From Candidatus Heimdallarchaeota archaeon (GTDB taxonomy: Archaea > Asgardarchaeota > Heimdallarchaeia > Heimdallarchaeales > Heimdallarchaeaceae), in assembly GCA_030608385.1 (NCBI GenBank), contig JAUWEG010000007.1, positions 1-46,020 of the forward strand: 46,020 bases of DNA, read 5' to 3'. Below are positions 18,722 through 26,111 of this stretch, piece by piece. Position 1 is the stretch's first letter. The number at the start of each line of letters is the position of its first letter. The notes under the pieces are model-generated. The model saw only the letters and a list, made by a program, of their open reading frames with translations. It did not search any database and was not told the DNA's origin. Made by a program: the position numbers and the translations under genes.

Positions 18722-18940
18722 ATGGGTAATATTCGAACAAGCCAAGTAAAACGGTTATCCAAACAAATTGTGAGAGATTTTCATGATCAACTCAATACAG
18801 AGTTTGAAAACAACAAACATGTAGTTGAAGAAGTTTGTACCACAATGTCTAAGAAGATGCGAAACCTGATAGCTGGTTATGTTACACGCATTATGAGACA
18901 ATTCAAAGATCAAAAAATACAAGTTTTAGAAGAACTCTAA
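18722..18940 (+). CDS. rps17e: Small ribosomal subunit protein eS17
   Basis: This 72-residue protein starts MGNIRTSQVKRLSKQIV and contains FENNKHVVEE, MSKKMRNLIAGYVTRI and a basic tail. The eS17 signature MGNIRTS...KR and the RNxIAGYxTR motif are both present, and the length is typical of archaeal versions (60-75). The protein is a 30S subunit component shared by archaea and eukaryotes and absent from bacteria. It is not in a ribosomal protein operon here. T-rich tracts follow the stop. Confidence 0.93.
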   Translation: MGNIRTSQVKRLSKQIVRDFHDQLNTEFENNKHVVEEVCTTMSKKMRNLIAGYVTRIMRQFKDQKIQVLEEL

Positions 18941-22145: not shown

Positions 22146-22166
22146 CTAATCTGCTTATTGAGAATT

Positions 22167-23000
22167 ATGGATAAAGAAAAAACTAAGATAGAAGCAGATA
22201 AACCTGTCTTCGAAGAGGGAAAACAATATCATATTGAATGCAAACCTGGAGATTTGAAAGGGCCTGTACTTCTTCCAGGAGATCCTGAGAGAGCGAGAAG
22301 AATAGCTGAAACATGGGAGGAATTTAAAGAAATTGCAGCTCATAGACAATACTATTCCTATACAGGTAAAGTTCATGGAGTTCCGATTAGCGTTACATCT
22401 ACAGGTATTGGAACACCCGCTTGTGAAATAGCAATTACTGAATTGCTCAATATTGGATGTGATACATTCATAAGAGTAGGTTCTACAGGTGCTATTCAAC
22501 CAAGATTAGAATTGGGAGATCTAATAATTAACACAGCTGCAGTCAAGATGGAGGGATCTAGCAAATATTATGTGCCAGCAGATTACCCAGCTTCAGCTCA
22601 CTATGAAGTTGTTCTAGCGCTTATAGAAGCATGTGAAGTTCTAGGATTTACTTATCATTTAGGAATAGCTGCCTCATCTTCCAGTTTTTATCTAGGTCAA
22701 GGAAGACCAGGATATAAAGGTTATAAGATATCAAAAACAGATAAAATTGTCCCGGATCTCCAAAAGATGGGGGTAATGAATCTCGAAATGGAAGCGTCAC
22801 ATATATTTACACTAGGTCAAATCTATGGAGCTAGAACTGGGGCTATTTGTGCCGTTTATGCAAACAGAGTTACTAATGAATTTGGAGCAAAAGGAGAAAA
22901 AGAAGCAATAGCAGCTGCAAATTATGCAGTCAAAGTTCTAGCAGAAATGGATGAAGAAAAAAGCAATAAAGGGACAAAGCATTGGTACAGAATGAAATGA
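22167..23000 (+). CDS. Nucleoside phosphorylase, uridine phosphorylase-like (PNP/UDP family)
   Basis: The 277-residue enzyme would cleave nucleosides with phosphate to a free base and ribose 1-phosphate. Family motifs are LLPGDPERARRIA at the phosphate site, STGIGTPACEIAITEL, RVGSTGAIQPRLELGD, and NLEMEAS contacting the ribose. The RVGSTGAIQ form is closer to uridine phosphorylases (RIGTTGAIQ) than to purine enzymes. The base-specificity segment (GQGRPGYKGY) does not match the usual QxRYD pattern, so the substrate remains open. ATG 22167 is chosen on promoter spacing. Confidence 0.85.
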   Translation: MDKEKTKIEADKPVFEEGKQYHIECKPGDLKGPVLLPGDPERARRIAETWEEFKEIAAHRQYYSYTGKVHGVPISVTSTGIGTPACEIAITELLNIGCDTFIRVGSTGAIQPRLELGDLIINTAAVKMEGSSKYYVPADYPASAHYEVVLALIEACEVLGFTYHLGIAASSSSFYLGQGRPGYKGYKISKTDKIVPDLQKMGVMNLEMEASHIFTLGQIYGARTGAICAVYANRVTNEFGAKGEKEAIAAANYAVKVLAEMDEEKSNKGTKHWYRMK

Positions 23001-23197: not shown

Positions 23198-23941
23198 TTA
23201 CATTTTAGCAATGCCAGGGAAGTAGTAATCCCCAGATTCTTCTTCCAGTATTGCTAAATCCATCTTCATCATCAATGTCATCGTGCTTTGAGCTCTTTCC
23301 ATTGACCATCCTAAATGACTTGCAACCTTGTCAACTGATAATGCTGGTAATCCTGTAGCTAGCATTAATATCTCTTGTATATCATTTGACATTTCGATTG
23401 GTTTGAATCTTATCAAAACCTCTTCTTCTCCAAGATCTACTTTTGGTGGAATTACTTCTTTCTCTTCCAATTTGCGTATAACTTCTAAAATTTCTCCTGT
23501 TCCTACCTTCCAGTTTGGTCTTGTTTCCCTGAAGTAATCTATGAGGTTTACAACTGTAATTGCACTACCAATATCTTCTAGTTCTTCAGTTCCTATAACC
23601 ATTATTTCTTGAACAAGTTTTTGTTTGAATTCATCTTTACCAAACAACATTGGAGTTTTTACTTTGCCTGCAGTTCCTATTGTTTCTGCCATCCCTGCTC
23701 TTTTACGAAGTTCAAGTACCTTACCAACTAGCATTTTAGAAGCTATAAGATCTTTTTCTGATTTCTTTTCAATCCTCTCTATTCCTTCTTCAAAGACTTC
23801 TTTCCTTCTGTCTTCATCTTGCCTTTGAGCATCCTTTAACCCTGCATCAAATGATTTGTAGGCATCTGAAATATCTGAGCGAAGGTCCTTTTTTTCTTCT
23901 TTTTGCTTCTTTTGTTTACCATTTTTTTTATCAGGTACCAT
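23198..23941 (-). CDS. ESCRT-II EAP30-domain protein (Vps22/Vps36-like)
   Basis: I recognise this as a probable Asgard ESCRT-II subunit; eukaryotic ESCRT-II bridges ESCRT-I and ESCRT-III on membranes. The N-terminal ~80 residues are highly charged and helical (KKNGKQKKQKEEKKD...), as in the coiled N-terminus of Vps22. MAETIGTAGKVKTP resembles the MCATIGVDPLAS segment of human SNF8. After it come two winged-helix-like modules. The end, LGWSMERAQSTM...DYYFPGIAKM, matches the LKWETERARQVL...HYWLPALF end of SNF8. ATG 23941 is preferred over ATG 23965 because a TATA-like element lies about 30 bases upstream, giving 247 residues. No other ESCRT gene is adjacent. Assignment is by eye. Confidence 0.72.
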   Translation of the reverse strand: MVPDKKNGKQKKQKEEKKDLRSDISDAYKSFDAGLKDAQRQDEDRRKEVFEEGIERIEKKSEKDLIASKMLVGKVLELRKRAGMAETIGTAGKVKTPMLFGKDEFKQKLVQEIMVIGTEELEDIGSAITVVNLIDYFRETRPNWKVGTGEILEVIRKLEEKEVIPPKVDLGEEEVLIRFKPIEMSNDIQEILMLATGLPALSVDKVASHLGWSMERAQSTMTLMMKMDLAILEEESGDYYFPGIAKM

Positions 23942-23967
23942 TAGTATCAAGATGAATCTACCCATCC

Positions 23968-23975
23968 TTATATAA
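23968..23975 (-). promoter_or_regulatory. TATA-like element for the ESCRT-II-like gene
   Basis: TTATATAA lies about 30 bases before ATG 23941 but only 3-10 bases before ATG 23965. The spacing supports the downstream start. Confidence 0.5.
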
Positions 23976-24109
23976 AAAAATATTCAATTAAGTACATCAA
24001 AAAGTTTTTAGTTATTATGAAGTTACGCCATAATTGAAGAAGAGAATAATGAAATAACCTTTGGGTAAATTACTTTATTTTTAGTACTCAAAATTACAAG
24101 GCGTAAATA

Positions 24110-25468
24110 ATGAACGATATAAATATAACAGCTTACGGTGCTACAGACTTTGTGGGAAGAAGCAGTTTTCTTCTACACGATAGAGATCATAATATACTTC
24201 TAGACTGTGGTCTACAATTAGTTCCTAAACAAATGTCTATCGCTCCAAAAGGAGTAGATAATATAGCACACAAAGTTGATTCAGTTCTTCTAAGTCATGC
24301 ACATATAGATCATTCTGGGTATATGCCCGCTTTATCTAAACATGGTTTTAAAGGAAATTACTATATGACTCATCCAACCAAGGAAATAGTTTACAAACTC
24401 TGGCTAGATCATCTAAAAATTGAAGGAAGAAGACATTGGTCAGAGTCTGATTTGGATAAAGTATTTCGAAGAATAAAAACTACAGAATATGAAAAACCAT
24501 TCAAAGTAGCAGATGGAATTACTGCACGTTTGATTAATGCTGGGCATGTTCTAGGAGCAGCTCAAATACTTATCGATTGGGAAGGGACATTGATTCTCTA
24601 TACTGCTGACATAAATGATAGAATAACTCCTATGTTTGATGGATATGATTTACCAGATGAGAAAATAGATGTTCTATTAATAGAATCCACTAATGGAGAT
24701 CGTTATGTGCCTGAGAGATCAAAGATAGATGTTGGTCTTCGTCTTATGGCTAAGCAAATAACAGATGAAAAAAATAAAATGCTTTTACCATCTTTTGCAG
24801 TTGGTAGGTCTCAGGAAACGTTAATCACATTAGCTTTAGACGACGATTTGAATGATGTACCTATTTATATTGATGGAATGATTAACCATATGAATATGGT
24901 TACAGAACACTTTCTAAGTGATAAGTGGGTATCCAAACGTTTTCTCAGTCAGCTGAAAGAAGCTGGTCTCTATTCACCTTTCGAAAAACAAAATTTTATT
25001 CCCGTTCCCTCAATTTCAAATAGAACACACAATTCTAGAAAATACATCTCAAAGAATGAAGAGGGCTCAATCATTGTTACTACTTCAGGTATGTTAGAAG
25101 GAGGTCCTATTCATACTTATTTGGAATTATGTGGAACCAACCCTAATAATGTCCTAGGATTTACTGGCTACCAAGTAGAAGGGACAACTGGAAGAGACAT
25201 ATATGATGGGAACAAAAACATAACACTTCAAACAAGTTATGGGCAACCAAAGAAAATCAATTTAAAGGCAAAAGTAATGAAATTTCCATACTCTGGACAT
25301 AGTTCAGTAGATGGTTTGAAAGCAGTAATGGAGAAATCAGGCGCAAATGAGATATTTTTAATTCATGGTGATAAAAGAAACCAAGTATACATTCTCAACT
25401 TTGTCAAGGATATTGCTAAACCAAAAATCCTGAAAGAAGCAGTACCAACCAAGCTAGTGAGTTTGTAA
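24110..25468 (+). CDS. Beta-CASP metallo-beta-lactamase ribonuclease (aCPSF/RNase J superfamily)
   Basis: This family processes RNA 3' ends or degrades RNA using a two-zinc active site. The 452-residue protein has the zinc motif HAHIDH (63-68), a further His in NAGHVLGA, Asp in YTADIND, and beta-CASP motifs with TSGMLEGGP, FPYSGHSS and the final His in LIHGDKRN. The ligand set looks complete. No KH domains precede the core, unlike aCPSF1, so it resembles the shorter aCPSF2 type. One base separates its stop from the hexulose-phosphate synthase start, so the two are co-transcribed. Confidence 0.9.
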   Translation: MNDINITAYGATDFVGRSSFLLHDRDHNILLDCGLQLVPKQMSIAPKGVDNIAHKVDSVLLSHAHIDHSGYMPALSKHGFKGNYYMTHPTKEIVYKLWLDHLKIEGRRHWSESDLDKVFRRIKTTEYEKPFKVADGITARLINAGHVLGAAQILIDWEGTLILYTADINDRITPMFDGYDLPDEKIDVLLIESTNGDRYVPERSKIDVGLRLMAKQITDEKNKMLLPSFAVGRSQETLITLALDDDLNDVPIYIDGMINHMNMVTEHFLSDKWVSKRFLSQLKEAGLYSPFEKQNFIPVPSISNRTHNSRKYISKNEEGSIIVTTSGMLEGGPIHTYLELCGTNPNNVLGFTGYQVEGTTGRDIYDGNKNITLQTSYGQPKKINLKAKVMKFPYSGHSSVDGLKAVMEKSGANEIFLIHGDKRNQVYILNFVKDIAKPKILKEAVPTKLVSL

Positions 25469-25469
25469 A

Positions 25470-26111
25470 ATGAAAATCAACAATCCTCCTTATCTGCAGA
25501 TTGCTTTGGACTTAGTTGATAAGACAAAATTGGACAGAATCTTATCAAAAATTCCAGACTCAGATAAAATTCTTTTAGAAGCAGGGACACCACTGATCAA
25601 AAAATTCGGAATTGATATAGTGAAATTTATACGAGAATTTCATCCAGCATCATATACTATTGCAGACATGAAAACTCTAGATGTAGGCTGGTTGGAGGTT
25701 CAAATTGCAGCTGAAGCTTCAGCAAATGCTGTAGCTATCAGTGGATTAGCCCCAAATGAAACACTTGTTTCATCAATTGAAGAAGCTGAAAAAAGAAGGG
25801 TTGATATTTTATTAGATTGTATGAATGTTGAATCACCATCTACAATTCTTGAAAATTTAACAAAAAAACCAGAAGTTGTACTTTTTCATAGAGGAATAGA
25901 TCAAGAAGGAAAAACAGATCATCCTTGGAATAAAATTAAGCTAATCAAAACAAAATTTCCAGAAAGTAAAATAGCTGTTGCTGGTGGGTTAAATCTTGAA
26001 ACAAGTGCTCGAGCTCTCAATAATGGAGCAGACATTATAATTATTGGTAGAGCAATTACTCAAGCAGATAACATTAAAGCCACAATTAATGATTTCCTTC
26101 ATTTGCTGTAA
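25470..26111 (+). CDS. hps: 3-hexulose-6-phosphate synthase (OMP decarboxylase superfamily)
   Basis: This enzyme interconverts ribulose 5-phosphate plus formaldehyde with hexulose 6-phosphate. In archaea lacking the oxidative pentose phosphate route it runs in reverse to make pentoses. The 213-residue barrel shows LQIALDLVD, LEAGTPLIKKFG, the catalytic ADMKTLDVGWLE (D-x-K-x-x-D) and VAGGLNLETSARALNNGADIIIIGR at the phosphate site. The companion isomerase (phi) is not next to it. 3-keto-L-gulonate 6-phosphate decarboxylase is a close relative, but the EAGTPLIK segment favours Hps. Confidence 0.88.
   Translation: MKINNPPYLQIALDLVDKTKLDRILSKIPDSDKILLEAGTPLIKKFGIDIVKFIREFHPASYTIADMKTLDVGWLEVQIAAEASANAVAISGLAPNETLVSSIEEAEKRRVDILLDCMNVESPSTILENLTKKPEVVLFHRGIDQEGKTDHPWNKIKLIKTKFPESKIAVAGGLNLETSARALNNGADIIIIGRAITQADNIKATINDFLHLL

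Follow-up and report, generated by a model that had tools for sequence, protein, structure and literature searches.

A second Vps22-type ESCRT-II paralogue of the Heimdallarchaeia, encoded outside the ESCRT cluster and beside a beta-CASP ribonuclease gene

The window analysed here, a 46,020-nucleotide stretch from a Candidatus Heimdallarchaeota archaeon (contig C126 of an assembly which is approximately 89% complete), contains at positions 23198 to 23941 of the minus strand a gene for a protein of 247 aa, EAP30-B, whose identity as a second Vps22-type ESCRT-II subunit is near certain from Pfam, profile searches, a phylogenetic tree, an AlphaFold model and Foldseek. We establish the fold, family, paralogy and age of this protein, the purifying selection acting on it, its separation from the ESCRT cluster and its stable linkage with a beta-CASP ribonuclease gene. 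An upstream ATG at position 23965 would extend the protein to 255 aa, and the TATA-like TTTTTTATAT at 23970-23979 (minus strand), located in the spacer that separates EAP30-B from the beta-CASP gene, probably suits the 247-aa start better.

The sole Pfam family in the window protein is EAP30 (PF04157, residues 49-232), with 29.7 bits versus a cut-off of 26.8, and this family was also matched by 43 of its 44 aligned homologues. A single-sequence search of the PDB ranked SNF8/Vps22 first, albeit as a weak match, and with a profile of the B family the top five places were all taken by ESCRT-II chains (human SNF8/Vps22 5.6e-16, yeast Vps22 4.7e-9, Vps36 1.4e-4). The AlphaFold model is good (mean pLDDT 83.7, pTM 0.61), and consists of a long N-terminal helix (residues 7-60, positions 23762 to 23923), a hairpin, a first winged helix (residues 102-178, 23408 to 23638) and a second winged helix (residues 186-240, 23222 to 23386, all on the minus strand), the latter having a conserved PxExxxD entry, W212, an ER pair and the FP C-terminal motif. 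When this model was compared with the PDB using Foldseek, only ESCRT-II chains (SNF8, yeast Vps22 and Vps36) were found at E<0.001, with a whole-chain TM-score of about 0.5, possibly due to a differing angle between stalk and head. The original prediction of an ESCRT-II EAP30 protein, made by eye from a MAETIG segment, LGW-x-x-ERA, a YYFPGIAKM end and two winged-helix modules, is thus borne out, with all three motifs present in the minus-strand ORF (the second as LGWSMERA), both modules visible in the model, ESCRT-II chains on top in the profile and fold searches, and no general transcription factor family ranking first. Tandem winged helices and a divergent gene pair, the latter typical of local regulators, would also fit a DNA-binding transcription regulator, but this is improbable: no regulator family scored above the cut-off for the window protein, none outranked the ESCRT-II chains when the fold was compared with the PDB, and the winged-helix region is acidic (net charge -12).

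A full Ub-ESCRT cluster is located on contig C143 of the same genome, and encodes ubiquitin, E1, a fused E2/UEV-Vps23-Vps28 protein, EAP30-A, Vps25, Vps4 with a MIT domain, and two Snf7-type ESCRT-III proteins. Near relatives, among them AB_125 and Candidatus Heimdallarchaeum endolithica PR6, carry the label Candidatus Heimdallarchaeota, and together with the cluster they bear out the earlier claim that the genome is Asgard. This genome has two EAP30 genes, of which EAP30-A (73.7 bits to EAP30) lies inside the cluster on the other contig. The gene studied here is therefore a second paralogue; of the suggested "second or relocated copy" only the first part holds. EAP30-B shares family, genome and similar length with the Asgard cluster Vps22 (HeimAB125_14050 type, here L033:9762-10487), but is only approximately 25% identical to it, falls into a different clade and is encoded away from the cluster. 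Its conserved TRxNW motif, which contains an invariant W144, and its short wing are both absent from EAP30-A. The position of the second EAP30 gene outside the cluster could suggest that it was recently copied or relocated from the cluster Vps22 gene, or is a duplicate in decay, but this is almost certainly wrong in view of the retained cluster gene, the low identity, and the class-wide clade and strong purifying selection described below. Searches of the approximately 89% complete assembly gave no further copies of Snf7 or Vps25, so that any ESCRT role of EAP30-B must make use of the single Vps25 and the two ESCRT-III proteins found, although the level of completeness means that more ESCRT genes may be missing from the assembly.

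To define the family, a profile of 13 B orthologues (A2) was searched in 228 Asgard genomes. The B proteins scored 176-370 bits, against at most 142 bits for every other EAP30 protein, with two B gene fragments at contig edges falling outside the B range (168 and 130 bits). EAP30-B was present in 40/45 genomes of five families (f1, f2, f3, f4 and f6), and the five genomes lacking it have a completeness of 64-88%. In a tree of 76 proteins, the B proteins grouped with weaker relatives found in f5, a sixth family, in one clade (support 98/98), which contains Heimdallarchaeia alone and in which the subclades track the families, arguing for vertical descent from at least the ancestor of the class. 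The gene duplication behind EAP30-B dates to the last common ancestor of the Heimdallarchaeia or earlier, with vertical inheritance afterwards. The dN/dS ratio versus near relatives is approximately 0.04-0.07, and EAP30-B is under strong purifying selection. The number of ESCRT-II paralogues is reported to vary in Asgard (Makarova et al. 2024, PMC10936438), with the B subfamily and its link with the RNase not described in the main text of that paper, as far as it was available.

Other EAP30-type proteins were also seen in the Asgard genomes. Families f10 and f15 contain more second EAP30 proteins outside ESCRT clusters (L094:4338-4997, L095:7086-7745 and L087:7365-8069), which have no firm position in the tree, and proteins of approximately 780-800 aa in family f28 (L098:6027-8423, L099:6791-9133 and L100:5398-7728) end in an EAP30-type tandem winged helix. 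The second EAP30 protein of family f26 (L082:7888-8679, also L085 and L086), again outside the cluster, has an N-terminal zinc ribbon and is encoded beside a 207-aa gene; the latter looked ESCRT-III-like by eye, but had no Pfam match and no credible PDB match, and this assignment was dropped. A grouping of the f26 zinc-ribbon protein with B found no support, but was not rejected either (p-AU 0.385).

A third EAP30-type family (C) consists of proteins of approximately 330-390 aa, with a helical N-terminal half and an ESCRT-II fold according to Foldseek. It is found in operon-like groups in Ca. Heimdallarchaeum endolithica (L048:5554-10287) and at L047:4809-9315 (both f1 relatives) and L141:5181-11334, together with genes for a UBA5-like E1 (182 bits to UBA5 vs 90 to MoeB), a JAB protease, a putative ubiquitin-like protein of 88-92 aa ending in VG, an E2 of the UFC1 family (above cut-off) and an SPFH protein. 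Among genomes from the window's own genus and family, the three with UFC1 are also the three with C. The small protein (88 aa and ending in ...NRGVVG(L) in the two f1 relatives) matched neither the UFM1 model nor anything in the PDB search, and its UFM1-like naming is based on position, size and C-terminus; the operon-like group is a candidate for an archaeal conjugation system of UFM1-like type. A 2023 paper (PMC10183829) reports UFM1 and UFC1 from eukaryotes alone. In families f5 and f7 a C-type EAP30 gene is followed by an SPFH-like gene (L108:969-9068, L043, L044 and L150), and the f5 loci have E1, E2, ubiquitin-like and JAB genes nearby.

Like Vps36 in eukaryotes, EAP30-B is a second EAP30-domain protein in one cell, and were it the Vps36 of archaea, Vps22 and Vps36 would have split before eukaryotes arose. 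Human Vps36 was placed loosely on the B side of the tree and a B+Vps36 grouping was not rejected (p-AU 0.465), but Vps22+Vps36 was equally acceptable (p-AU 0.358) and Vps36 is a very long branch; the AU tests do not decide between the two. We consider this orthology very unlikely on other grounds: the B profile gave 62 bits with Vps22 vs 25 with Vps36, EAP30-B has only a helical N-terminus in its 247 aa where Vps36 has GLUE/PH or zinc-finger domains, and it keeps Vps22-type motifs that are missing from Vps36.

The Vps22-type residues kept in EAP30-B are P181, E183, D187, W212, R216 and the FP end. With eukaryotic Vps22/SNF8/EAP30 it shares an N-terminal helical part followed by tandem winged helices, P-x-E-x-x-x-D, a conserved W, a C-terminal P, and an acid at the Vps25 contact. 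In yeast, Asp214 of Vps22 makes a salt bridge with Arg83 of Vps25 (PMC539351), and the aligned position is D or E in 27/28 B proteins, being Glu233 in the window protein (codon at 23243 to 23245, minus strand). On the other hand, identity with the eukaryotic proteins is only about 18-19% in the fold alignment, the EAP30-B gene is paired with an RNase gene, and binding of Vps25 by EAP30-B is a prediction. As a separate observation, the Vps25-contact position is Ser, not Asp, in the cluster-type EAP30-A proteins of family f5 (L109:7742-8458 and L032:1447-2178), and the B relatives of that family keep Asp.

The retained contact acid, the Vps22-type motifs and the fold together favour a continued ESCRT-II-type assembly with the only Vps25, either as a homodimer or with EAP30-A. 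Judged from sequence and model, the best reading, at about even odds, is that EAP30-B still works as an ESCRT-II core subunit, as a second, diverged Vps22-type protein. Its N-terminal helix would then form the stalk of a dimer, made either of two EAP30-B chains or of EAP30-B and the cluster Vps22, its second winged helix would dock the single Vps25 of the genome through the conserved acid, and the resulting second form of ESCRT-II would recruit ESCRT-III under other expression control or at another site than the cluster-encoded form. Two features argue against such a role: the B-specific W144 of the TRxNW motif and the short wing may serve a different partner, and the B loci are without recognised ESCRT genes, the RNase gene being the only conserved partner.

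Asgard ESCRT-II genes usually sit with other ESCRT genes, and at none of the B loci examined could such a gene be recognised nearby. In the window, the convergent neighbour of EAP30-B is a nucleoside (uridine-type) phosphorylase gene (22158 to 23000, plus strand), and on the other side a short divergent intergenic region (23942 to 24109) separates it from the gene for a 452-aa beta-CASP ribonuclease (24110 to 25468, plus strand), which is related to aCPSF1, CPSF73 and INTS11, and lacks KH domains. A 3-hexulose-6-phosphate synthase-like gene follows downstream (25470 to 26111, plus strand), and the gene for ribosomal protein S17e (18722 to 18940, plus strand) is also near B genes in families f5 and f6. 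The neighbours named in the original prediction were correct; "orphan" is apt as to the missing ESCRT neighbours, but not for a gene that is kept throughout the class and has a beta-CASP RNase gene as its linked partner. Within f1 the entire region around B is conserved, hence there is little information in it, whereas outside f1 almost all other window genes are lost and the beta-CASP gene is still beside B; at the f2, f3 and f6 loci these two are often the sole window genes found, with S17e in addition in f6. A divergent B/beta-CASP pair, 103-431 bp apart, is present in 33 loci (19 in f1, 1 in f2, 5 in f3 and 8 in f6), and in every case its RNase is orthologous to the one encoded in the window, never to the two other beta-CASP proteins of the genome. 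In one f4 locus the beta-CASP gene is 2.6 kb from B, and the f5 relatives adjoin S17e and usually also a KaiC-like gene.

The combination of lost ESCRT linkage and kept RNase linkage favours a role near RNA turnover. The main alternative to the ESCRT-II reading, possible if doubtful, is that EAP30-B has left the ESCRT pathway and serves as a tandem-winged-helix adaptor working with the neighbouring beta-CASP RNase. This would be in line with the persistence and specificity of the pairing, with the mRNA binding reported for eukaryotic ESCRT-II (PMC4852451), and with RNA-bound SelB winged helices among the weaker Foldseek matches. Similarly, PNP_UDP_1-family nucleoside phosphorylases recur near B in three arrangements across families f1, f3 and f4 (the window gene, L041:10150-10959, L051:7200-7946 and L070:3516-4271), with RpiA as well in f3, but this recurrence was spotted post hoc and is only suggestive. 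Conversely, the negative charge of the winged-helix region and the retention of the ESCRT-II interface acid speak against the adaptor role, a shared promoter region can by itself hold divergent genes together, and the linkage is gone in f4, in part of f3, and in f5, where S17e is found instead. An ESCRT-II-type assembly and a role in RNA turnover are compatible with each other.

With regard to earlier work on this group, Hatano et al. 2022 (PMC9192718) stated that Asgard genomes contain just one Vps22/Vps36-like gene, reported homodimer formation by Vps22 of the MAG HeimAB125, and inferred that the heterodimer arose during eukaryogenesis; the part of that paper available to us does not mention a second EAP30 protein. 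On the public contig MEHH01000026.1 (L130), the B gene of HeimAB125 shows no difference from the one in genome G008, which has EAP30-A on another contig, and HeimAB125 carries EAP30-A as well as EAP30-B. The Heimdallarchaeia are thought to be the group closest to eukaryotes, and EAP30-B raises the question of whether these archaea already had a heterodimer of Vps22 type; the pairing of EAP30-B with the RNase provides a second, equally testable idea. A more far-reaching proposal, which we put forward as speculative and rather unlikely, is that EAP30-B either makes up an ancient module with the beta-CASP RNase, tying an ESCRT-II-type assembly to RNA decay, or is a true heterodimer partner of Vps22. 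In the first case the reported link between ESCRT-II and RNA in eukaryotes would have a pre-eukaryotic root, and in the second case a two-subunit Vps22-type stalk would predate the eukaryotes.
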